Positions 38,425 through 57,523 of a stretch of 64,000 bases of DNA are shown piece after piece. The stretch's first letter is position 1. Every line of letters starts with the position of its first letter. This DNA is from Elusimicrobiota bacterium (GTDB taxonomy: Bacteria > Elusimicrobiota > Endomicrobiia > Endomicrobiales > Endomicrobiaceae): assembly GCA_017525905.1 (NCBI GenBank), contig JAFXSD010000011.1, positions 1-64,000 of the forward strand, written 5' to 3'. The position numbers and the translations under genes are program-made. Under the pieces are notes generated by a model, which saw only the letters and a list, made by a program, of their open reading frames with translations, was not told the DNA's origin and ran no database searches.

Positions 38425-39195
38425 ATGAAAAAAATGTTAAGTTTGGCAGTTGCATTAGTAGCAACTGTGATGTTGGGCAGTTCAGTTTTTGCAGTAACGT
38501 ATTCTACAGGTACTTACACAGGTATTGCAGATTTCACAAATGCAGGTAATGTAGCGTTTACTTTCACACTTAAGAATGTAAGTGGTGATGCAACAGTATC
38601 GGATAGCACAATTAAATGGACAAGTGCAGATGCTTTTGTTACAGGTTCAACTATAGCTTGGGTAAGAGCAGATCAATATGCAGTTGTAGCTGCAACAGTT
38701 ACAAAAGCAGGTTTCAATGTTTATATGTTCCAAGACAACAAAAACAATTCTTCAGACTATAAAGCTACAACAGGAAGAACAAATGCCGATAATACAAAAG
38801 CTTTCAGCGGATTGGTTAGAAAAGGTTCAGGCGGTGGAGATTACAGAGGTTATATTCCTGTAGCTTATTCTTTCGTTGGAACAAAAAATGCAAATATTAC
38901 TTATTCACAAGCAACATCAACAACATCTGCAACAAGAGCAGACAGATATTTTGGTGATGTTTCAGATACAAATGCAGCATCATCTTATCCTAAAGGAATT
39001 GGAGCTTATACAAAAATCGCAAGTATAGTTGGTCCTGTATTCGGTGTTGATAATAATACCGGTGATTGGACAGGTTCTCAAGTTACAAACCACACTGCAT
39101 ATATGTATTTCTTCGGCGGATTTGCTAACATTCAAGGCGGATCTAACGATATTTACAAAACAGAAAAATTATATGTAGTTCAAGTTACAGAATAA
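38425..39195 (+). CDS. Secreted protein A1 (unrecognised beta-rich family)
   Basis: 256 residues. A clear signal peptide (MKKMLSLAVALVATVMLGSSVFA) is cleaved before VTYST. The mature protein is Thr/Ser/Asn/Gly-rich, with few charged residues and no Cys. Its start has a YTGIADF motif also found in A2, D1 and D2. The segment VAFTFTLKNVSGDATVSDST onward aligns with the C-terminal half of B1 and B2. Strong AGGAGAGG ribosome site and a stable hairpin after the stop suggest abundant product, perhaps a surface layer or fibre subunit. Function unknown. Confidence 0.85.
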   Translation: MKKMLSLAVALVATVMLGSSVFAVTYSTGTYTGIADFTNAGNVAFTFTLKNVSGDATVSDSTIKWTSADAFVTGSTIAWVRADQYAVVAATVTKAGFNVYMFQDNKNNSSDYKATTGRTNADNTKAFSGLVRKGSGGGDYRGYIPVAYSFVGTKNANITYSQATSTTSATRADRYFGDVSDTNAASSYPKGIGAYTKIASIVGPVFGVDNNTGDWTGSQVTNHTAYMYFFGGFANIQGGSNDIYKTEKLYVVQVTE

Positions 39196-39214
39196 TTGTA
39201 AGTTATATTGTTGG

Positions 39215-39239
39215 GATATGCACCAAACCGGTGCATATC
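39215..39239 (+). terminator. Hairpin between A1 and B1
   Basis: A ten-base-pair perfect stem, GATATGCACC (39215-39224) and GGTGCATATC (39230-39239), with loop AAACC. No U tail follows, so it probably protects or partly terminates the A1 message rather than ending transcription. Confidence 0.55.
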
Positions 39240-39340
39240 TCGACACAAGATAAGAAGTCAGTTCTTTTTTGTTAAGTTGTTTAAAAGAGTTTTATACAAT
39301 TTTATTAAAAAGAATTTTTTTGTTTACAGAAAGGTTTTAA

Positions 39341-40621
39341 GTGTATATAAAAAAAGTTTTAGTATTATCATTATTTTTATGTTTAATGGTTTCTTCTGTT
39401 TATGCAAGTAATATAGGCAGAACTGTGTATGGTGTGTTTGCGGAATCCGCTACCGGAACTCATTTTGACGGTGCATCCAGTGATGCCGATAGTGTTGTTT
39501 TTGAGTTTTGGAATGATAAATGGACTCAATATGTAAATACAATGACAAGTACCGAAAAAACTGCAGGTGTGGTTGAAGGGTTGGTTTATTCAAGGCTTAC
39601 TTTTGTAAATCCTTATACTTGCGGTTGGGGAGCCAGTGTAATAAGATCGAGCAATAGTAGTGGTTATAAGAATATGAGTGAATATTATAACGGGAAAGTA
39701 AAATTTTTGGCAAGAGTGACTCCGGCAAATGCTAAAGCTTTAAACTGCAAAGTTGGATTAATATTAAATAGTGATACTGCTTTCTATGTTGGAACACTGA
39801 GTGATTTGGGCTTACAAGCGAATAATACATGGACGGAACTTTCTTTTAATTTAAAAAGTTCTGTCAATTCTAATATTACGACAACTAATTTGGCAAAAAC
39901 AAAAGCATTGATTGTCTTTATGCAGGATAATAATGTTACTACAGATTTATTTTTTGATGTAGACTATATTCGTTGGATTAAACCTAATTCAACGGGCTCT
40001 TTTAGTGTTACCGTAAAAAAAGTTTCCGATAATTCAACTTTAAGCACAGATAATATAACATGGGCATCAAGTAATTTTCAAACAGGTTGGAAAGTTGCGG
40101 AACAGTATTTGGAAATAGATTACGATAAAGATTCTTCAACCAGAGATTGGAATGTTAAATTGTATGTAAATAACGGTTCAAAAAGTAAAAATGGTTTATA
40201 TGCGACTAAGGCAGGTAAAGATTATGTTATGCCAATGTGTTGGAGAGCAAGTGAAAAAACTCTCCCGTATACGGATGGCAACGGTGCTCATACTTTACAA
40301 ATAGCTAAGGGTGAAGGAATTGATGATGAAGGGAAACCATACGATTATCTTTATGATAGCGGTAGTAATTCTACAACATATGCACCGTGGTTATTTATGC
40401 AGGATTTGACAGCTTTAGAAACGGATAAAGATAAAGATTATTCAACGGTAATGAGTTATCACACCGGTTATCACGGTTATTCCGGTAAATATGGTGGTCT
40501 TCATGACGAAAAAGGTTATTATGCAGGTAGTAAAGTTGCTTTGTATTTAGGCGCAGATTGTAATGCAGCAGGCGGTTTAAAATATCAGGGAAACATATTA
40601 GTTGTTTTGGAATATGAATAA
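39341..40621 (+). CDS. Secreted two-domain protein B1
   Basis: 426 residues from a GTG start behind AGAAAGG. Signal peptide MYIKKVLVLSLFLCLMVSSVYA. The N-terminal half (about 23-215) resembles a galactose-binding or carbohydrate-binding jelly roll (GYKNMSEYYNGKVKFLARV, then WTELSFNL and FFDVDYIRWIK). The C-terminal half (about 220-426) is homologous to A1 (FSVTVKKVSDNSTLSTDNITW, WKVAEQYLEIDY). Paralogue of B2, which has the same length. Possibly a glycan-binding surface protein; this is inferred from fold resemblance only. Confidence 0.82.
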   Translation: MYIKKVLVLSLFLCLMVSSVYASNIGRTVYGVFAESATGTHFDGASSDADSVVFEFWNDKWTQYVNTMTSTEKTAGVVEGLVYSRLTFVNPYTCGWGASVIRSSNSSGYKNMSEYYNGKVKFLARVTPANAKALNCKVGLILNSDTAFYVGTLSDLGLQANNTWTELSFNLKSSVNSNITTTNLAKTKALIVFMQDNNVTTDLFFDVDYIRWIKPNSTGSFSVTVKKVSDNSTLSTDNITWASSNFQTGWKVAEQYLEIDYDKDSSTRDWNVKLYVNNGSKSKNGLYATKAGKDYVMPMCWRASEKTLPYTDGNGAHTLQIAKGEGIDDEGKPYDYLYDSGSNSTTYAPWLFMQDLTALETDKDKDYSTVMSYHTGYHGYSGKYGGLHDEKGYYAGSKVALYLGADCNAAGGLKYQGNILVVLEYE

Positions 40622-41387
40622 AGTGATCTTTAAAAAATTTTTGATCTTTGTAAGTTTAATGTTTGTTTTTAATTTAGCTTACGCTAACTTAGAAATAGCA
40701 CCTGCGGTTGTTAATATCAATGCGGAACCGATGTCTGTATATGAAGGTAAGTTTATTGTTACTAATCTTGAAGATGTTCCTGTTACGGTAAATATTGAAA
40801 AGGAAGATTGGAAAAATTCTTCCGGGAATGATAGTTTTACTACAGTTGATAAATGGTTGGAGTTACCTAAAACGGTAGTTGATATTGCTCCTAAAGGAAC
40901 AGTTGAAGTTCCGTTTGTAGTTACAACCGATAGTAATATGAAAGGTTCAATTTCCGGAATGGTTGTATTCACTATTGAAGGCGGAATGTTTCAAATTTCG
41001 ATGAAACAACCTGTATATTTGGTTATAAAAGGGACCGAAAAGTTAGATTTTAAAATTGACGAGTTGGATTTGAAAACATCAACAAGAGACGGCGGAATTT
41101 ATTATAATTTAACTCTTAAAAATAACGGGAATATTCATATAAGACATAATGGTGTTATTGAAATTTATAATAAACAAACAGGCGATTTGGTAAAGTCAGT
41201 TAATATAGATGAGACTTTTCCTACTTATGCACAGGACAGCAGGAATTTTAAAGGTTTTGTAATAAGCGGGACAGATTTGAAAAAAGGCAAATATGTAGCT
41301 TTGTTTAAGATAAAAGCTTTTGATAAACAGGTAATAGGAAGAAAAAGATTTAAGGTTTCAAGATTAGGCGAAGTTGTTACGGAATAA
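40614..41387 (+). CDS. PapD-like periplasmic chaperone C
   Basis: 257 residues from the ATG that overlaps the B1 stop in ATGAATAA. Signal peptide ends LVFNLAYA. Domain 1 (about 22-125) is an Ig-like fold like fimbrial chaperones (LEIAPAVVNI, FIVTNLEDVPVTVNIEKEDW, WLELPKTVVDIAPKGTVEVP). Domain 2 (about 140-235) is a second Ig-like fold with LTLKNNGNIHIRHNGVIEIYNK. It probably holds secreted subunits or is part of the surface assembly. No copy is present in module 2, so one protein may serve both. Confidence 0.68.
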   Translation: MNKVIFKKFLIFVSLMFVFNLAYANLEIAPAVVNINAEPMSVYEGKFIVTNLEDVPVTVNIEKEDWKNSSGNDSFTTVDKWLELPKTVVDIAPKGTVEVPFVVTTDSNMKGSISGMVVFTIEGGMFQISMKQPVYLVIKGTEKLDFKIDELDLKTSTRDGGIYYNLTLKNNGNIHIRHNGVIEIYNKQTGDLVKSVNIDETFPTYAQDSRNFKGFVISGTDLKKGKYVALFKIKAFDKQVIGRKRFKVSRLGEVVTE

Positions 41388-41436
41388 ATTTGATGTAAAT
41401 TTGTAAAAAATAAAGTAGAATATTAGATAGAGAAAA

Positions 41437-42717
41437 ATGAAAAATAAAAAAATATTATTATCAATTTTAGTTTTAGCTTTAATGTTCGGATTTAATTTTT
41501 CCGCGCAGGCAGTGATACATAGCACAGAAACATATACCGCTGTTGCAGATTTTGTCGATTTTGTTCCGGAATTGGAACATAATGAACCTTATGTTGATAC
41601 GGTTATAAGTTGTAACATGGTGTTAAAACCTAAAACTAGAATTTATTTAAGCAGTCTTTGTGAATCTGCCGTTGCTAATGTAAATTATTATTTTAATGAT
41701 TCCGGAGATATTAGAAAAGGTCCGGATTATAATACAGCTGAAAACGGGGAATTTTATCCTGCAACCAAACAAATAAAAAATTCTTATTTGGGCGGTACAA
41801 TAAGTTATAAAGTTAGTTCGGAATTTACCACAAAAAAAGCTACCGGTGAAAAAATGTCATTGGAAACACCGGATGAATATAAAACGGCAGTGATCATTAG
41901 TTCGATAACAAAACCGGTTGATTTAGGTGTTGCCACAACAATAACTGTTCCTACCGGAGATCAATCTCAACCTGATTGGGTTGGTACTTCCGGTGTTTTC
42001 CCCGGATTTGAAGGTATTGTGGTTGATTATGAATTTAATTTCGGTTTTATAGATGATTCGTCAGTATCAGGTGCATTTAGTTTCTTAAAAGCAAAATCTA
42101 ATTTCCATATAATAAACTTAAAGGGTAATTTTTTCCCTGCGATTAATGGAGGAAAGTTACTTTTTGGTTCAGGAAAAGATACAACAAAGTTTAACGATGA
42201 TTTAAAGGAAAGAGTTAAATCCGCAAAAAAATTATCTATTCAATATAACGAAGATGTGAATGCTTGCGATTCAAACGGAGAAGTTGTTTTAGAAGATGGC
42301 TGGCAAAATCTTTCTCCGGATGATACTTCAAAATTCAATATTGAAGAAGATGGAAATATTTCATATCCGCCTTTCTTAAATGCATGGATAAGAATTTATG
42401 CTGTAACAAGTGAACCTTCAGATAATGATTACAGACCTGCAAAGAGAGTAAGAGTAAAATCGAGAATTTCAAATCCAGGATATGGCGGATTTAAATTCAA
42501 TAACTTAACAGATGGTGATGTTGTTAAGATATACAATGTAAGCGGTAAAAAAGTTGCAGAACTTAATGCTCCTGAAGGCGCTGAAGGTTTCGAGTGGAAA
42601 GGTAGGGAAGGAACAAATAATAACGGTGATTGGGCAAAGAGCGGAACATATATTTATCAAATTAAGTTAAAAGAAAAGAGTAAAGTAATAAGCGGTACGA
42701 TAGCATTTGTTTGGTAA
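41437..42717 (+). CDS. Secreted protein D1 with C-terminal FlgD-type Ig domain
   Basis: 426 residues. Signal peptide ends FNFSAQA. The mature start has YTAVADF. A beta-rich middle contains FPGFEGIVVDYEFNF. The last about 90 residues form a FlgD_ig-like module (RVRVKSRISNPGYGGFKFNNL, VVKIYNVSGKKVAEL, SGTYIYQIKL, ISGTIAFVW). Such modules often end proteins secreted to the cell surface in Gram-negatives with PorV-type barrels. Paralogue of D2, with the C-terminus best conserved. It is 13 bases before the PorV-like gene. Confidence 0.82.
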   Translation: MKNKKILLSILVLALMFGFNFSAQAVIHSTETYTAVADFVDFVPELEHNEPYVDTVISCNMVLKPKTRIYLSSLCESAVANVNYYFNDSGDIRKGPDYNTAENGEFYPATKQIKNSYLGGTISYKVSSEFTTKKATGEKMSLETPDEYKTAVIISSITKPVDLGVATTITVPTGDQSQPDWVGTSGVFPGFEGIVVDYEFNFGFIDDSSVSGAFSFLKAKSNFHIINLKGNFFPAINGGKLLFGSGKDTTKFNDDLKERVKSAKKLSIQYNEDVNACDSNGEVVLEDGWQNLSPDDTSKFNIEEDGNISYPPFLNAWIRIYAVTSEPSDNDYRPAKRVRVKSRISNPGYGGFKFNNLTDGDVVKIYNVSGKKVAELNAPEGAEGFEWKGREGTNNNGDWAKSGTYIYQIKLKEKSKVISGTIAFVW

Positions 42718-42730
42718 TTAAGAGGTTATT

Positions 42731-43663
42731 TTGAAAAAGGTATTAGTAGCAGTATTATTATTATCCATATCGGTTATAACGGTTCAAAAGGCTGAAGCCG
42801 TTTTTGAAGATACCTATTGGGGTGTAAGAGCTTTGGGTATGGGGGGAGCTTTTACTGCTGTAGTAAACGATTCCAATGCTCCGTTATATAATATCGCCGG
42901 AATAGCAAATTGTGCTCAAAAAGAAGTAACATTGATGGGTTCAAGATTGTTTGCCGGTTTGGAAGGTGTGGAAATTGCAGCAAATTATTTGGGATTTGAA
43001 TATCCTTTTTCTGAAAAGATAGGATCATTTTCTTTTGTATGGTCTTCGTTAAGTACTCCGGGATTGTCGAGATACGATACATTTAACATAGGTTATGCAA
43101 GAAGATTGAATGATGTATTTAATTTGAATACCGAAATAGTAAATTTAGCAGCCGGTTTAAACTTAAAATATTTAAGACAGGAAATAAATTTTGATGAAGA
43201 AGATGCGGACTTGTCCAGCAGCAAAGGTGCATTGACCGCAGATATCGGTATATTGGCACAATTTAAAAATGGTATAAGTTTAGGTTTCAGCAGCAAATAT
43301 TTAACTGCTCCGGATGTAGGTTTTAAAGAAAAAGATACAGTAAGTAATATAAATGTAATAGGTATAGCTTATTATACGGATTTGTTACCTTATGTAAAGA
43401 TACCTACATTTACGGTTGATTTGGATGTAGTGTTTATAGACGGTGAAGTAAAACCGAGATTAGGTATGGAAAGTTATGTTTTGAACGATAAGTTGGCAAT
43501 AAGACTTGGCGGAAGAGAAGAAGCTTTTGATATCGGTTTCGGATACGAGATTACATTTGCAAACGAATCAACATTGATAATAGATTATGCTTTTGAGTTG
43601 CCTTTTGAGATTGAAGAGAGTTATGGCTCACATTTCATAGCCATTTCATTTAGATTCAATTAA
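42731..43663 (+). CDS. PorV/PorQ-like outer-membrane protein E1
   Basis: 310 residues from a TTG start five bases after AGAGG. Signal peptide ends TVQKAEA. The mature start (VFEDTYWGVRALGMGGAFTAV, NAPLYNIAGIA) is typical of the PorV/PorQ or UPF0164 barrel family. Alternating beta strands run to a C-terminal aromatic/Asn end (SFRFN) as in outer-membrane barrels. PorV proteins act with type IX secretion in Bacteroidetes, but no other T9SS gene is seen here. Closest relative is E2. Confidence 0.87.
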   Translation: MKKVLVAVLLLSISVITVQKAEAVFEDTYWGVRALGMGGAFTAVVNDSNAPLYNIAGIANCAQKEVTLMGSRLFAGLEGVEIAANYLGFEYPFSEKIGSFSFVWSSLSTPGLSRYDTFNIGYARRLNDVFNLNTEIVNLAAGLNLKYLRQEINFDEEDADLSSSKGALTADIGILAQFKNGISLGFSSKYLTAPDVGFKEKDTVSNINVIGIAYYTDLLPYVKIPTFTVDLDVVFIDGEVKPRLGMESYVLNDKLAIRLGGREEAFDIGFGYEITFANESTLIIDYAFELPFEIEESYGSHFIAISFRFN

Positions 43664-43670
43664 ATTTAAC

Positions 43671-43699
43671 TTGTAAATATTTAATTGTTTTTGTATAAT
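43671..43699 (+). promoter_or_regulatory. Promoter of surface-protein module 2
   Basis: TTGTAA (43671-43676), a 17-base spacer and a perfect TATAAT (43694-43699), 44 bases before the A2 start. It indicates that module 2 can be transcribed separately from module 1. Confidence 0.6.
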
Positions 43700-43743
43700 A
43701 ATTCTGTTGTTAAATTTTTTTATAAATATAAATAATTAAATAA

Positions 43744-44553
43744 ATGAAAAAAATTTTTGGTTTCGTTTTTATTTTAACAAGTTTATTTGTTTGTTCAAAT
43801 ATAACTTTCGCAGCATTTCCTGAGGGTGGGGACCTTTCAACGGTTTCCGTCGTAGCCGATTTTACAGGCAGCGCAGTAGCAGATTTTTCTTTCGAATTAA
43901 AAGATATTTCCACGAATGTTTCTACAAGTACAATAAATTGGAATGTCCAGGATGTAAATTTTTCGCAATCTTCAAACCAATGGTTGTGGTCTACAACCTA
44001 TGCTGAAATAAAAGCTCATATAACGGTTAGTACTGTAAGTTATTATATATATCAAAAAAATACCGAAAGTTCTGTTTATAAATCTACTGTTCCCAGAACG
44101 ATTGATGTGTTTCAATCGAGCAGAACTTTTGCTTATAACGGTTTGGTAAATCAAAAAAAACAAGGCGGAGAAGTCGGAGGGTATATTCCTTTAAGTTACC
44201 TTATTACTTCAAGCAAGTTAAGTGGTTCCGATTTACAAAATAAATACAATCCTAATGAGATGAAAGAAACGAAAGTAGCAAGATATTTAACCGACAGACA
44301 AGATTATATAGCACATTATAATGGTGAAGAAGTTACAAGTACTGAATCTAATTTTAAAAGAGAGTATGCAATTATCGCATGTTTCGGCGGACCGGTTTTT
44401 AATGCTTATAACGAAGCCGGTGAATATGAGCCGTGGAGACCTGATCTTATAGATAACACTGCATACATATATTTTGGCGGGAACTTTGTTAATATTTCTG
44501 TCGGAGATATTTTTGGAACAGATCAAATTGTTATAGAAAAGGTTGTTGAATAA
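43744..44553 (+). CDS. Secreted protein A2
   Basis: 269 residues. Signal peptide MKKIFGFVFILTSLFVCSNITFA. Paralogue of A1: VVADFTGS start, VADFSFELKDIS, GGYIPLSYLITSS, then GGPVFNAYNEAGEY and DNTAYIYFGGNFVNI near the end, matching TAYMYFFGGFANI of A1. It is more charged than A1. No good Shine-Dalgarno is visible before the ATG. It is followed by B2 after 2 bases. Function unknown; same proposed surface role as A1. Confidence 0.82.
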   Translation: MKKIFGFVFILTSLFVCSNITFAAFPEGGDLSTVSVVADFTGSAVADFSFELKDISTNVSTSTINWNVQDVNFSQSSNQWLWSTTYAEIKAHITVSTVSYYIYQKNTESSVYKSTVPRTIDVFQSSRTFAYNGLVNQKKQGGEVGGYIPLSYLITSSKLSGSDLQNKYNPNEMKETKVARYLTDRQDYIAHYNGEEVTSTESNFKREYAIIACFGGPVFNAYNEAGEYEPWRPDLIDNTAYIYFGGNFVNISVGDIFGTDQIVIEKVVE

Positions 44554-44555
44554 TT

Positions 44556-45836
44556 ATGAATTTGAAAAAAGGTATATCATTATTCGTTATGTTATTTGCG
44601 GCAGCAACAGTTGCTTTTGCTGCTAATAGAAATGTTTATAGCGTGTATTCCGATAATTTTAACGGTTCACATTTTGATGCTGATGCTTCGGATGAAGATT
44701 CTATTAAGCTTTATACATGGTCGGGAACAATAAATCCTTCGTCTGTTGACAGTAATGCTCCTGAAGGTAAACAATATACAAGACTTTCATGGGTCGGAAA
44801 TCTTAATTGGAACGGTTGTGGTTGGACAAGTACAAATTCTAATGGCTATCAAGATATGTCCGCATATTATGGCGGTACAATTAAATTCTTGGTTCGTTCA
44901 TCAAATTCAAAGATAGTAAATTGTAGAGCGGGTATTGAAATAAATGGTAATTTAGTTTATAAAACATTGGAAGATTTAGGTTTTTCCGCTAACGGGCAGT
45001 GGCAAGAAATAACCTTTAGTCTTAATACAAGTACGGATTCGAATATCACTTCTGAAAATCTTGCAAAAACAAGTGCTTTGTTCATATTTTCCCAGGATAC
45101 ATTTGTCGAAGGTGGCAATGTCTTAGAAGTAGACAATATCCGTTGGGTAAAAAGCGGCAACCCTGCGGAATTTTCTGTTACAACAAAGAATGTTTCAAAT
45201 AATTCGGAAGTTTCGGATGGGGTAATATCTTTTTCTGCAGATTCTTTTGAAAAAGGTTGGTCTGTTGCAGAACAATATTTGGAAATGGATGTTGACGGGG
45301 AATTTCAGAATAACAATTGGAAGATAAGAGTTTATACCAATAATGATATAAACGGATTATATAATATCGATAATAAAAACGATGTTTTACCTATGGCATG
45401 GAAAATAAGTTGTTCCACTTTGCCGTATGTGTACACGGATTATGATGCTCAAGGTAATCCGTTTCAAAATAAAAACACTTATGAAATAGGTGAAAATAAA
45501 AGTGAAACTGGAGAATTTTTTGGATTATATGATGCCGGTAAAGTTGAGTTCCTTCAAAATGAAGGAGTGAAATGGTTGTATCCTTGGTTTTTTGTAAAGG
45601 CAAACGGAGATACAAGTGAATATTCTGTAATTTGGCAGAATGTTTCCGGTAATCCTTCACAATCCGGGTGTCATACTTTTGAAAACACTGATACAGGTGG
45701 TGCAGTTCATGAGTATTATGATGCACTTACAAATTTTTATGAAAGAAAACCGAAGTTATTTTTAGCATGTGATACAAAAAAAGCAACAGCTTCAAAATAT
45801 ACAGCAAGTTTAGTTTTGAATTTAAGTTATGAATAA
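44556..45836 (+). CDS. Secreted two-domain protein B2
   Basis: 426 residues, identical in length to B1. Signal peptide MNLKKGISLFVMLFAAATVAFA. Jelly-roll-like N-terminus (GYQDMSAYYGGTIKFLVRS, LEVDNIRWVK) and A-type C-terminal half (FSVTTKNVSNNSEVSDG, GWSVAEQYLEMDV, VLPMAWKIS). It is clearly the counterpart of B1 with dispersed substitutions along its length. Its stop codon overlaps the D2 start in ATGAATAA. Confidence 0.82.
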   Translation: MNLKKGISLFVMLFAAATVAFAANRNVYSVYSDNFNGSHFDADASDEDSIKLYTWSGTINPSSVDSNAPEGKQYTRLSWVGNLNWNGCGWTSTNSNGYQDMSAYYGGTIKFLVRSSNSKIVNCRAGIEINGNLVYKTLEDLGFSANGQWQEITFSLNTSTDSNITSENLAKTSALFIFSQDTFVEGGNVLEVDNIRWVKSGNPAEFSVTTKNVSNNSEVSDGVISFSADSFEKGWSVAEQYLEMDVDGEFQNNNWKIRVYTNNDINGLYNIDNKNDVLPMAWKISCSTLPYVYTDYDAQGNPFQNKNTYEIGENKSETGEFFGLYDAGKVEFLQNEGVKWLYPWFFVKANGDTSEYSVIWQNVSGNPSQSGCHTFENTDTGGAVHEYYDALTNFYERKPKLFLACDTKKATASKYTASLVLNLSYE

Positions 45837-47034
45837 TATGGAAAAGTTTTATACAAAAAAATCATTCTTAATAATGTTTATATTTTCAATATTGTTTTTA
45901 GGTATTGGTATTTGTTATGCTGCAAGTTCGGAAACATATAAAACAATATCTTCCGTAGCGGATTTTTCTTCCGTAACGCCTGCAGTTAAGCATGATAAAA
46001 TTCCTACTGTTTTAGCAAACGGAAAATTTAATGCAAAAGCTATAGTTTCTTTCGGTGGAGCTACAATGTCGGAAGCAAATCTTTATTTGGAATATAAGTT
46101 GGATTCTGTTAATATCAGTACTGTATCAATTAAAAAAGTAGCAACCAGAACAGATTATTATCTCGCAATACCGGAAGGAGTTATAACTGAAGATCTCGAA
46201 TCAATAGAATATAGAATTGTAGGTGAGTTTAAAATTAAAGGACAAAGTGAACCTTTTTATGCTTATGCTCCTTCATCAACTACGTTTGTAACAACTGATG
46301 TTATAAGTATTATAGAAGAAGATATTGATGGTTCTGAAAATAGTGAAATAAAAGTTTTCAGTGGAGATCAGTCTAAAGATGATGGTTATGTTACTGTTTC
46401 CGTCCCGAAAGGTGCATATGACGGAACACATAAGGTTACTGTGGATTTCCTTGAAGATGTTTCTTATGCAGATGCGTCATCATCTGGCCAAAGAGAGACT
46501 GTTATTTCGGCAGTATCGGTTGATGTTGATTCTGTTTCAGAACTTAAACAACCGATAACGATCAAAAATCTTCCATTGCAAACTGAAACTAAAGCAAATA
46601 GATTCTCTTTACAAATTTTTGATGGTGCTGAATGGAAAACCGTACCAAAAGCAAATTTGTCTGTAGATAAAAAGAATCAAACATATTCTTTCTCGGCAGA
46701 TACTTTAGGTACATACAGAGTATTGGAAACTATAGTGTTATCCGACTCGAGTTACAGACCGTCAAACAGAATAGTCGTAAAGAACAAAATTCCGGGCAGT
46801 TATCCCGGTTTTGAATTCAAATATTTGAAAGAAGGCGATAAAGTAAAAATATATAATTTGAAAGGTAAAAAAGTAGCAGAGCTCAGCAGCGGATCATCTG
46901 ATGGATTTATTTGGGAAGGTAAGAAAGGAACAAATAATTCCGGTGATTGGGTTGAAAGCGGAACATATATTTATCAGATTAAATTGAAAGACGGCGGCGA
47001 TGTTATAAGCGGAACAATTGCTTTCGTTTGGTAA
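45829..47034 (+). CDS. Secreted protein D2 with C-terminal FlgD-type Ig domain
   Basis: 401 residues. The ATG overlaps the B2 stop; a second ATG at 45838 would shorten it by three residues. The signal peptide is long and ends GIGICYA. The mature start contains SSVADFSS. The middle has a ZU5-like or Ig-like stretch (VTVSVPKGAYDGTHKVTVDF). The last 90 residues match D1 (RIVVKNKIPGSYPGFEFKYL, KVKIYNLKGKKVAEL, ESGTYIYQIKL, ISGTIAFVW). The D1 and D2 middles differ much more than their ends. Confidence 0.82.
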   Translation: MNNMEKFYTKKSFLIMFIFSILFLGIGICYAASSETYKTISSVADFSSVTPAVKHDKIPTVLANGKFNAKAIVSFGGATMSEANLYLEYKLDSVNISTVSIKKVATRTDYYLAIPEGVITEDLESIEYRIVGEFKIKGQSEPFYAYAPSSTTFVTTDVISIIEEDIDGSENSEIKVFSGDQSKDDGYVTVSVPKGAYDGTHKVTVDFLEDVSYADASSSGQRETVISAVSVDVDSVSELKQPITIKNLPLQTETKANRFSLQIFDGAEWKTVPKANLSVDKKNQTYSFSADTLGTYRVLETIVLSDSSYRPSNRIVVKNKIPGSYPGFEFKYLKEGDKVKIYNLKGKKVAELSSGSSDGFIWEGKKGTNNSGDWVESGTYIYQIKLKDGGDVISGTIAFVW

Positions 47035-47048
47035 AACTTATATAAAAA

Positions 47049-47975
47049 ATGAAGAAAACAGCAGCTTTATTATTATTAACCATAATGTTTTTTGCAGCTC
47101 AGCAGGTACAGGCTGCTTTTGACGATACCTATTGGGGAGTAAGAGCTTTAGGTATGGGTGGAGCATTTACGGCAGTATCTAACGATGCAAATGCACCGCT
47201 GTACAATGTTGCAGGTACGGCTTTTGTTGCTCAAAAAGAAGCAACTTTGATGGGTTCAAGATTGTTTGCCGGATTGGAAGGTGTTGAAGTCGGCGCAAAC
47301 TATGCCGGATATGTTCATCCTATAAGTACAAAAGCCGGTTCAATATCTTTTGCTTGGTCATCAATATCTACTCCGGGTTTAAGAAGAGAAGATACATTTA
47401 ATGTCGGTTATGCAAGAATAATAAACGATTTGGTTGGCTTAAACAGTGAAGTTGTGGAAATTGCTGCAGGTTTAAATTTTAAGTATTTATTGCAGGAAGT
47501 TAAGTTCGGTCCCACAGAAGAAGAGTTAGATACTTATAAAGGTGCTATGACCGGTGATATCGGTATATTGGCAATGTTTTCAAATGGCATCGGTATAGGT
47601 TACAGCAGTAAATATATAGTTCCTGCCGATATCGGTTTCATGGAAAAAGATGAAGTTAAAAATATAAATGTTTTAGGTTTAAGTTATTATAATGACGAAT
47701 TACCGTACATAAAAATTCCTTATTTCACAATTGCCTTGGATGTAATATTTAGAGATAATGAAACTTTTATAAGAGCCGGTGTAGAAAGTTATGTAATTGA
47801 TAGAAAACTGGCAATAAGATTAGGCGGAAGAGAAGAAGCATTTAATGTCGGTTTCGGTTACGAATTTTCTTTTGCTAATGCAACCAAACTGGTGGTAGAT
47901 TATGCATTTGAATTACCGATAGAAGTAGAAGACAGCTACGGTTCTCACTTCTTGTCGCTTTCCTTTAAATTTTAA
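47049..47975 (+). CDS. PorV/PorQ-like outer-membrane protein E2
   Basis: 308 residues. Signal peptide ends AQQVQA. Strongly similar to E1 along its length (FDDTYWGVRALGMGGAFTAV, LMGSRLFAGLEGVE, LAIRLGGREEAFNVGFGYEF), ending in the barrel-type SLSFKF. Of the duplicated genes this pair is the best conserved, so the barrel is under the tightest constraint. It is the last gene of module 2, converging on tenI; no strong terminator hairpin is visible, only T-rich sequence. Confidence 0.87.
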   Translation: MKKTAALLLLTIMFFAAQQVQAAFDDTYWGVRALGMGGAFTAVSNDANAPLYNVAGTAFVAQKEATLMGSRLFAGLEGVEVGANYAGYVHPISTKAGSISFAWSSISTPGLRREDTFNVGYARIINDLVGLNSEVVEIAAGLNFKYLLQEVKFGPTEEELDTYKGAMTGDIGILAMFSNGIGIGYSSKYIVPADIGFMEKDEVKNINVLGLSYYNDELPYIKIPYFTIALDVIFRDNETFIRAGVESYVIDRKLAIRLGGREEAFNVGFGYEFSFANATKLVVDYAFELPIEVEDSYGSHFLSLSFKF

Positions 47976-54310: not shown

Positions 54311-57300
54311 ATGGCTAACAAATTTAAGTATTATCTTAACCAAGACGGAAGTTTCGTTATTGAGAATTATAATTTAGCACCGACTTTTTCAAGCTTTTTC
54401 CCGGGAATTTCCGGAGTAAAAGGTATTCCTATGTGGGCATATTATGTTAACAGAGGACAAGGAATTTGTACATTCGGTATAAAAAATAAAAACAATGCGA
54501 TAATGGAATTTTATCCTGCAAATGTAAGTTATAATTTGGTAAACACTTTCGGCTTTAGAACATTTTTAAAAATAAAAAAAGGTAAAGATACAATTTGTTA
54601 TGAACCTTTCAAAAATAATAGTGCCGATATAAAAAATGTAAAACAAAATATGTATATTTCCGCTTACGATTTGACGATAGAAGAAACAAATACAAAAATC
54701 GGTATTAAAACAACAGTTACATATTTTACTTTACCTAATCAACCGTTGGCGGGTTTGTTAAGAAAAGTTACGGTTGAAAATTTATCAAAACAAAATATTC
54801 AGGTGGAAATTGTTGACGGTATGCCGAAGATTCTTCCTTATTATGTTAATTCCTGGTCACAAAAGTTTATGTCAACAACAATTCAAGCATGGACAAAAGT
54901 CGATAATTTCAATAAAACGGGAATTCCTTTTTACAGATTAAAAGTTGAAACGGATGACAGACCTGAAGTTGTGGAAATTACGGAAGGTAACTTTTATTTT
55001 TCCGTAGTGAAAGACAAAAAATTAAAACAAGCAGACATTATAATTGATCCGGACATTTTGTTCGGTTCTAATACAAGTTTTTCTTTCCCTGAAAAATTGT
55101 TTAATGAAAAATTTGTATATCCCAAAACACAATTTGCCGATAACAAATATCCTACGGCATTCAGTTATGTAAAACAAAATTTGAGAGCCGGTGTAAATGT
55201 AACAATATATTCCATAGTGGGTCATATCGACAGTGTTAAATCTTTAAACAGTTTTGTTAAAAAGTTTGATGTAAAATATTTCGAAACAAAACAGGAAGAA
55301 AATAAAAATTTAATAAATTCAATTACGGCAAACATGGAAACACATTCTTCAATACCTGAATTTGATATGTATTGCAGACAAAACTATCTTGATAATGTTA
55401 TGAGAGGCGGACTTCCCATAGAATTTAAATATAACGATAAATCCGCAATGTATTATGTTTTTTCAAGAAAGCACGGCGATTTGGAAAGAGATTATAACGA
55501 GTTCCAGGTATCACCAAACTATTATTCGCAAGGTAACGGAAATTTCAGAGATGTAAATCAAAACAGAAGAAAAGATATTTTCTTTAATCCTAATGTAAAA
55601 GACAGTGCGGTAAAAATATTTTATAACTTGTTACAAATAGACGGTTGTAATCCGTTGGTGGTTAAGGGAACACTTTTCGTATTAGACACTAAAAGCAAAG
55701 AATATAAAAATATAATAAGTGATTTAAGTAACAAAAAAGACGAAGAAAAATTAAATGCATTTTTTCAAAAACCTTTTGAACCCGGTTCACTTGCAACATT
55801 TATGGAATTTTCGAATATAAAAACAAAAATAAAATTCGAAGATTTTATTGCAAAAGTGGTAACGACCGCAAAATCTCAAAATGATGCAAGTCACGGTGAA
55901 GGATATTGGGTAGATCATTGGAAATATAATTTTGATTTGTTGGAAAGCTTTTTATCCATTTATCCGGATAAGAAAAAAGAACTTTTCTTCGGAGATAAGT
56001 CTTTTATATATTATGATTCCGACCATTATGTTTTGCCGAGAAGCAGAAAATATGTTTTAACTCCTCAAAATACGGTAAGAAGATTTGGTTCCGTTGCACA
56101 ATCAAAAGAGAAAGCAAATTTGATCGCATCGAGAAAAGTTAACCCCAATGCTTTAAGGACAAACAACGGTAAAGGTGAAATTTATACATCTACATTGGCA
56201 TCAAAATTCGTTACTTTAATGACGGTAAAATTTGCAACATTGGATAGTAACGGTATAGGTATAGAAATGGAATCGGATAAACCCGGTTGGTATGATTCAT
56301 TTAACGGTTTGCCCGGTATTTTCGGTTCATCTACACCTGAAGTTTTCGAATTAAGAAAAATGATGATGTTTTTTGCCGATCTTTTAAAAGATAATAAAAA
56401 CGAAAAAATTTCCGTTCCTAAAGAAGTTGCAACTTTATTTAAAGAAATTAACGTCTTATTAAATTCAAATTTGAAACCGTTTGATTTTTGGAACAAAGCA
56501 ACAACTGCAAAAGAAAAATACAGAGAATCCGTAATAATGGGTATTGACGGAAAAGAAGAAGTTTTAAGTACGGATATATTGATTGATTTTATAGATAAGG
56601 CGGTTAAAAAAATAAATGCCGGTCTTAAAAAGGCCATAGATCCTAAAACAGGTTTATATTTTACTTATTTCAGACAGGAAGCGGTAAAATATACAAAGAA
56701 CAATCAAACAAGTATAAAAGGATTACCGTGTGTAACGGTTAGTGAATTCAAAACTTATCCGTTGCCGTTGTTCTTGGAATCGGAAACTCATTATATGAGA
56801 ATGTCTCAAGATAAACAAGAAGCAAAAAAACATTTTGTTGCTCTTAAGAAAAGCAGTTTGTACGATAAAGAACTTAAAATGTTTAAAGTATGCTCTTCAT
56901 TGGAAAAAGAATCTAATGAAGTCGGAAGATCAAGAGTGTTTTTACCGGGTTGGCTTGAAAACGAATCCGTATTTATGCACATGGAATTTAAATATTTGTT
57001 GGGACTTTTAAAAGCCGGTTTGTATGAAGAATTTTTCTCGTCGATAAAAACTTGTTTTCCGTGCTTTTTAAAACCTGAAATTTACGGAAGAAGCATACTT
57101 GAAAATTCATCTTTTATTTCTTCAAGTGCATTCCCGGATAAAAGAAATTGGGGCAGAGGTTTTGTTGCAAGACTCAGCGGTTCGACAGCCGAATTTATAG
57201 ATATGTGGCTTACCATGATTTTAGGTTATAACCCTTTTTCCGTAAACGATAAACAAGAGTTGGTGTTTAGTTTAAAGCCTGTAATTAACGGAGAATTTTT

Positions 57301-57523
57301 CGATAAGAAAGGCGAATTTAAAGCAAAATTGTTTTCAACAACCGATTTGGTATATATAAACAAATCCAAAAAAAGTACATATTTGCCGAACATGAATATT
57401 AAAAAGATTGAAATTTTGTGGAACGATAATTCAAAAGATGTTATTGACGATAATGTTGTTGTCGGTAAAAATGCGGAAAAGATAAGACAAAGACTCGCAA
57501 AACGGATAACGATTACTTTTTAA
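54311..57523 (+). CDS. Large GH94-type glycoside phosphorylase
   Basis: 1,070 residues, without a signal peptide, so cytoplasmic. N-terminal beta-sandwich (FPGISGVKGIPMWAYYVNRGQGICTFGI), then an (alpha/alpha)6 barrel with GEGYWVDHWKYNFDLLESFL, YVLPRSRKYVLTPQN, MESDKPGWYDSFNGLPGIFGSS and FLPGWLENESVFMHMEFKYL. These features fit clan GH-Q phosphorylases. The length exceeds classical GH94 (about 800) and is nearer GH149/GH161 beta-1,3-glucan phosphorylases, so the family and glucan linkage cannot be fixed by eye. It would release glucose-1-phosphate from an imported glucan. It stands alone with its own terminator. Confidence 0.82.
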   Translation: MANKFKYYLNQDGSFVIENYNLAPTFSSFFPGISGVKGIPMWAYYVNRGQGICTFGIKNKNNAIMEFYPANVSYNLVNTFGFRTFLKIKKGKDTICYEPFKNNSADIKNVKQNMYISAYDLTIEETNTKIGIKTTVTYFTLPNQPLAGLLRKVTVENLSKQNIQVEIVDGMPKILPYYVNSWSQKFMSTTIQAWTKVDNFNKTGIPFYRLKVETDDRPEVVEITEGNFYFSVVKDKKLKQADIIIDPDILFGSNTSFSFPEKLFNEKFVYPKTQFADNKYPTAFSYVKQNLRAGVNVTIYSIVGHIDSVKSLNSFVKKFDVKYFETKQEENKNLINSITANMETHSSIPEFDMYCRQNYLDNVMRGGLPIEFKYNDKSAMYYVFSRKHGDLERDYNEFQVSPNYYSQGNGNFRDVNQNRRKDIFFNPNVKDSAVKIFYNLLQIDGCNPLVVKGTLFVLDTKSKEYKNIISDLSNKKDEEKLNAFFQKPFEPGSLATFMEFSNIKTKIKFEDFIAKVVTTAKSQNDASHGEGYWVDHWKYNFDLLESFLSIYPDKKKELFFGDKSFIYYDSDHYVLPRSRKYVLTPQNTVRRFGSVAQSKEKANLIASRKVNPNALRTNNGKGEIYTSTLASKFVTLMTVKFATLDSNGIGIEMESDKPGWYDSFNGLPGIFGSSTPEVFELRKMMMFFADLLKDNKNEKISVPKEVATLFKEINVLLNSNLKPFDFWNKATTAKEKYRESVIMGIDGKEEVLSTDILIDFIDKAVKKINAGLKKAIDPKTGLYFTYFRQEAVKYTKNNQTSIKGLPCVTVSEFKTYPLPLFLESETHYMRMSQDKQEAKKHFVALKKSSLYDKELKMFKVCSSLEKESNEVGRSRVFLPGWLENESVFMHMEFKYLLGLLKAGLYEEFFSSIKTCFPCFLKPEIYGRSILENSSFISSSAFPDKRNWGRGFVARLSGSTAEFIDMWLTMILGYNPFSVNDKQELVFSLKPVINGEFFDKKGEFKAKLFSTTDLVYINKSKKSTYLPNMNIKKIEILWNDNSKDVIDDNVVVGKNAEKIRQRLAKRITITF

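Follow-up and report, generated by a model that had tools for sequence, protein, structure and literature searches.

Tandem gene sets in the window

The window, which is the whole 64,000-nucleotide stretch that was analyzed, represents one entire contig (64,003 bp) of an Elusimicrobiota MAG of 2.03 Mb (97.8% complete, 7.4% contamination). At 38425-47975 there are nine ORFs, all on the + strand, in the order A1-B1-C-D1-E1-A2-B2-D2-E2. When the products of this nine-gene set were compared with each other by blastp, identity was 30% for A1/A2 (E=3e-30), 35% for B1/B2 (E=7e-71), 31% for D1/D2 (E=4e-38), and 64% for E1/E2 (E=1e-152), and no second copy of C was found inside the array. The two copies of A, B, D, and E are genuine paralogues, and the duplication described in the earlier note is real. 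All nine products begin with a hydrophobic, signal-like segment, read from sequence, as that note had also reported. It further gave each module its own promoter, which was not established: 51 promoter-like sites were found versus 42.4 +/- 6.4 by chance, and the 80-nt gap upstream of A2 holds one 10/12 promoter-like match.

Two other frames of the window were recorded. A 7173-aa open frame occupies 14-21535 (+) at the contig start, and neither half matches Pfam at 1e-3. At 54311-57523 (+), after a purB-like gene, lies a 1070-aa protein that appears carbohydrate-active enzyme-like by eye and has no Pfam match at 1e-3.

A and B have a domain in common

A1 (38425..39195) consists of a signal segment, a short N-terminal strand (residues 24-41), and one beta-sandwich domain. 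Its AF2 model has a pLDDT of 84, with the 24-41 segment lacking secondary structure. The C-terminal half of B is a homologue of A (99.7% by hhalign, E 7e-27), and the match starts after the N-terminal strand of A. The N-terminal half of B matches the CBM30 profile (E 0.0012), and its jelly roll matches CBM30 by fold as well (Foldseek E 2.6e-4). B is thus predicted to be a CBM30/CBM11-like jelly roll joined to an A-like domain, which in B1 (39341..40621) would occupy 39410-39979 and 39992-40618, respectively. The paralogues A2 and B2 lie at 43744..44553 and 44556..45836.

No PDB fold matched the A model significantly, the best being the CfaB pilin (E 0.06). Chaperone-usher pilins or related donor-strand pilins make up about 12 of the best 50 fold matches, a result that is no more than suggestive. 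A PDB profile search with A was uninformative, since it mostly returned antibody chains through their leader peptides. A was rejected as a WxL or Fim-type pilin homologue, as it has no sequence match to either. Neither A nor B matched the profiles of WxL proteins, whose small and large members carry WxL domains with two WxL motifs. A and B also have no sorting domain of their own, which counts against a surface adhesin, although we still consider it probable that they form one.

C is a WxL-interacting-protein homologue

C (40602..41387) is predicted to have two Ig-like domains and no transmembrane tail. The earlier note called it a chaperone. Against WxL-interacting proteins (WxLIP) collected from Firmicutes plasmids, hhalign gave 95-97% over 217 columns covering both domains (DUF916 + DUF3324), with scores of 63-77. 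Shuffled-profile controls scored at most 20, and reversed and PapD-type controls were at background. By these profiles, C is homologous to the WxLIP of Firmicutes. A PapD-type chaperone was excluded, with a probability of 0.5% against five K-12 chaperones.

WxL clusters of Firmicutes are made up of small, large, and WxLIP genes, and the WxL sandwich is predicted to be completed by a strand that the WxLIP inserts (PMC10599100, PMC9772566; the strand in PMC10599100). Our module resembles them in two ways: C is a full-length WxLIP homologue, and a one-domain small protein accompanies a large protein with the same C-terminal domain and an added N-terminal binding domain. It differs in that A and B lack detectable WxL homology, C lacks a transmembrane tail, the host is a diderm, and the D-E anchor is coupled to the set.

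D and E resemble a type IX cargo and its barrel

D1 (41437..42717) has an N-terminal strand in common with A1, a variable middle, and a C-terminal domain at 42430-42714. The earlier note read this domain as FlgD-Ig, but a CHU_C type IX sorting domain is the better assignment: of 28 D homologues, 27 have a match to PF13585 (best 1.9e-9, 38 bits over cut-off). The two window copies score 23.0 and 22.2 against a cut-off of 27, and the window E copies also score under curated cut-offs. In D2 (45829..47034), the domain lies at about 46747-47031. A flagellar FlgD was rejected because CHU_C matches more members and matches them better, and because the phylum is without flagella (PMC11257099). E1 (42731..43663) and E2 (47049..47975) are PorV/PorP-family outer-membrane barrels. 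All 21 E homologues match PorV_fam, which is the best family, and 7 of the 21 match the PorP/SprF family; a PDB search with E gave no match.

The E gene immediately follows D in the window, as it does in nearly all modules read. Of 62 loci that lie outside the full module, 21 also have a D-like gene directly 5' of an E-like gene, and such neighbors occur in other phyla with unrelated cargo. The ordering by conservation given in the earlier note (E best, A least) holds, except that D is overall as divergent as A. Between the two copies, the sorting domain (last 95 residues of D) is 65% identical and E is 66% identical, compared to 24% for the rest of D. This equal conservation alongside a divergent remainder is what one would expect when a fixed pair carries a variable payload. 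The pair resembles the type B cargo and cognate shuttle of Bacteroidota; in Flavobacterium, a type B cargo has been proven to function together with the barrel encoded downstream of it. We regard D-E very probably as a cargo and its shuttle/anchor.

The rest of the genome was searched for type IX genes, which the earlier note had taken to be missing. A divergent SprA-like protein of 1850 aa (G000:C83, L079:7823-13375, +), downstream of BamA-like, LpxD-, LpxC-, and LpxA-like genes, contains three collinear TIGR04189 blocks (best E 1.4e-16, under the 200-bit cut-off). It had no match in a PDB search. Among the 61 Elusimicrobiota relatives searched, 49 gave a match to the SprA-like model. The genome also encodes ten PorV-family proteins and a 914-aa GH81 endo-glucanase (G000:C108, L073:10139-12883, +) with a CHU_C + TIGR04183 sorting domain over curated cut-offs, which is the best candidate for a type IX cargo in this genome. 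The models TIGR03517 and PF01364, used for the GldL/M motor and PorU sortase, gave no match here, nor in any control genome. Separately, one PorV-family barrel lies beside a CHU_C/FlgD-Ig protein (G000:C65, L074:8030-10298, -) in a cluster with Ser/Thr kinase, FHA, and coiled-coil proteins.

With a SprA-like protein, ten PorV-family barrels, and a sorting-domain cargo present in this genome, the module is not a self-contained export route lacking other type IX genes. The earlier note had proposed such a route with the barrel as the machine, so that E itself would translocate A and B. Co-inheritance of E with A, B, and D fits this proposal, but characterized members of the E family are shuttles and anchors rather than translocons (PMC12618676), the genome has a SprA-like translocon gene at another locus, and D-E pairs carry unrelated cargo in other phyla. 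We consider translocation by E very doubtful, and a shuttle and anchor the more likely role.

The similarity to type IX type B CTD cargo and PorP/SprF shuttles (e.g., SprB-SprF; PMC12618676, PMC9143113) comprises the CHU_C-type C-terminal domain of D, the barrel gene directly downstream, and the SprA-like gene in the genome. In contrast to those pairs, the closer family for E is PorV_fam rather than PorP, D is a small protein with an A-type strand at its N-terminus, and the phylum is Elusimicrobiota.

The N-terminal strands of A and D are matched within modules

Following their signal segments, A and D have an alternating hydrophobic stretch in common. In the window, these segments are VTYSTGTYTGIADFTNAG in A1 (38494..38547, +), VIHSTETYTAVADF in D1 (41512..41553, +), FPEGGDLSTVSVVADF in A2 (43816..43863, +), and SSETYKTISSVADF in D2 (45925..45966, +). 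A and D N-termini from the same module scored a mean of 27.5 compared to 19.6 between modules (n=32, p 5e-5; none of 20,000 permutations reached the observed value). The matching persists in 16 modules at <45% identity, and the five below 35% give p=0.02. Later offsets gave no signal, and the remaining gene pairs in the same test did no better than p=0.03, their scores differing by about one unit. Only 30 of 77 identical A/D residues use the same codon, and therefore the match is not explained by recent gene conversion.

The A-like domain of B starts just past the A-type stretch and is without that strand. This pattern is what a tip (no strand), a shaft (strand and groove), and a base (strand, no groove) would look like, with the A1 segment as a candidate donor strand. 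The module-matched strand is newly found here, as is a hairpin 3' of A in most modules.

A hairpin follows A in most modules

Just 3' of A1, at 39209..39245 (+), is a hairpin with a 16-17 bp stem (z -6.6 for the 145-nt gap). Across modules, 27 A junctions are 40 nt or longer, and in 21 of them a 13-21-bp stem starts 2-18 nt past the A stop codon; the stem sequences differ. Mean z was -5.1 for A>B (n=10) and -6.3 for A>C (n=11) compared to -0.6 for C>B and -1.3 for C>D, and no such hairpin was found at the last two junctions. Module 2 of the window has no hairpin, and its A2-B2 gap is 2 nt. Since most of the A hairpins are without a strong T-run, partial termination or mRNA protection favoring A is likelier than full termination. 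The arrangement could put the first product, A, in excess. In the papBA pilin operon, differential stability follows processing, but the hairpin there is upstream of papA (PMC5927463).

Distribution and history of the modules

The A-B-D-E order was looked for in related genomes, as the earlier note had suggested. With B as the query, matches were found in 26 of 61 relatives, all inside the order. At 40 loci that were read, the unit A-B-C-D-E or A-C-B-D-E is conserved in one to three tandem copies, and in the ruminant clade it adjoins the same stomatin/NfeD/signal-peptidase genes. C as the query matched 31 of 199 genomes of the phylum; outside the order, it adjoins A and/or D at most loci read, with B and E present in many. 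A/B/C/D/E linkage is seen repeatedly in Endomicrobia and also in Elusimicrobiota outside that group. Because A-B-D-E linkage is conserved, the pattern that the earlier note had set against itself, homologues scattered singly without linkage, did not occur, and its reading of a surface module that is inherited together and includes an outer-membrane barrel stands. Giant B homologues of about 1300 aa were seen in other Endomicrobiaceae, away from full modules (L064:208-4110, L067:5983-9942, L069:7979-11884, and L071:5922-9752).

In trees of A, D, and E, modules 1 and 2 of the window group with modules 1 and 2 of sister species, and therefore the duplication predates the genus. The module 1 B was replaced in G003, G006, and G010. 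The window C, in module 1, is orthologous to C in module 1 of G001, and in G003, G006, and G010 it is module 2 that retains a C, which belongs to a different orthologue. The earlier statement that one member was lost or gained can be refined accordingly: by these trees, the distribution of C between module lineages reads as differential loss.

Four genomes of the genus of the window (G000, which is the window's own, G003, G006, and G010) have a further lone C away from the modules. In G000, it lies after a RuvX-like gene in a housekeeping region (G000:C90, L184:8403-9188, +), with counterparts in the other three. In Endomicrobium proavitum (G019), a cultured species with a single contig of 1,588,979 bp (PMC4505116), each of two modules has one C. 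A rule of one C per genome was rejected due to the lone extra C and the two copies in E. proavitum. Since C is kept in module 1 or module 2 depending on the lineage, and lone C genes exist elsewhere, C probably serves both modules in trans.

The lone C also bears on another reading, a periplasmic or cell-wall complex like that of WxL proteins, with A, B, and C on peptidoglycan and D-E merely tethering the outer membrane. The homology of C to WxLIP, the small/large/WxLIP gene makeup known from WxL clusters (PMC9772566), and an extra C in a housekeeping region are in keeping with it. On the other hand, neither A nor B aligns with WxL profiles, the glycan-binding jelly roll would point outward, and C is lost in genus g8, a presumed intracellular genus (1.0-1.4 Mb), where none of 15 genomes had it. 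We find a wall complex of this kind rather improbable.

A model for a surface adhesin or fiber

Most likely, each of the two tandem copies builds a sugar-binding surface adhesin or fiber. Our best model is one in which the structure is held by a type IX-like cargo-shuttle anchor, has a WxLIP homologue as its partner, and is joined by donor strands; for this combination, belief and doubt are evenly balanced. All parts would cross the inner membrane via Sec, as their signal segments suggest. C would bind A and B in the periplasm as a chaperone. B may form the distal glycan-binding tip, with its CBM-like jelly roll and strandless A-like domain, and A the repeating subunit, in which a short strand precedes the A-like domain. 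D would be the base, having the A-type strand and the CHU_C sorting domain but no A-like domain. By donor-strand complementation, the A strand would enter B or the next A, and the D strand would enter the last A. The sorting domain of D would pass a type IX-like SprA translocon and then be held by E, its cognate PorV/PorP-type barrel. In this model, we infer donor-strand exchange, polymerization, the transport route, and the glycan ligand. Donor-strand assembly itself is possible, at somewhat under even confidence; the unstructured A1 segment and the matched A/D N-termini are indirect signs of it. The lack of both C and a hairpin in module 2 counts against the model, as do the missing significant fold match for A, the negative GldM and PorU model searches, and the scores of the SprA-like protein and of the window D and E under the curated cut-offs.

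Chaperone-usher pili (FimA, FimC, FimH) offer a parallel, with a shaft subunit having a free N-terminal strand, a two-domain strandless tip, and a two-Ig-domain periplasmic partner; the weak fold matches of A are also enriched in such pilins. However, C is unlike PapD/FimC, A has no sequence match to pilins, and the anchor is D-E. There is no usher among the genes neighboring the modules. More tentatively, the module may represent a new class of donor-strand surface fiber in a diderm phylum. A WxLIP homologue would replace the PapD chaperone, a sorting-domain protein on a PorV-type barrel would replace the usher, and the module-specific N-terminal strand of shaft and base would be a matching code.

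Another possible explanation is a fixed surface complex for glycan capture without a fiber, in which A, B, and D sit on E as in a glycan-binding or gliding-adhesin assembly, and the common A/D N-terminus docks both proteins on the same face of B or E. The CBM30/SGBP-like jelly roll of B, the GH81 glucanase with a sorting domain, and the rumen and gut origin of the Endomicrobia in this clade would suit such a complex. Yet the modules at L036 and L104 have the form A-A-D-E, without the glycan-binding B, the hairpin suggests that A is in excess, and the module has no TonB receptor. A fixed complex is unlikely in our judgment, and the adhesin or fiber remains our preferred reading.

Significance

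A 2024 survey of Endomicrobiaceae describes pilins as their only appendages (PMC11257099). If the adhesin or fiber model is true, a surface apparatus not yet described would be present across Elusimicrobiota, with the cultured E. proavitum among its bearers. The matched A/D strands provide a directly testable recognition code. The module would also link two systems otherwise unconnected, the WxLIP of Firmicutes and type IX anchoring, and would extend type IX-like cargo-shuttle pairs to Elusimicrobiota, a little-studied phylum with almost no described secretion biology.
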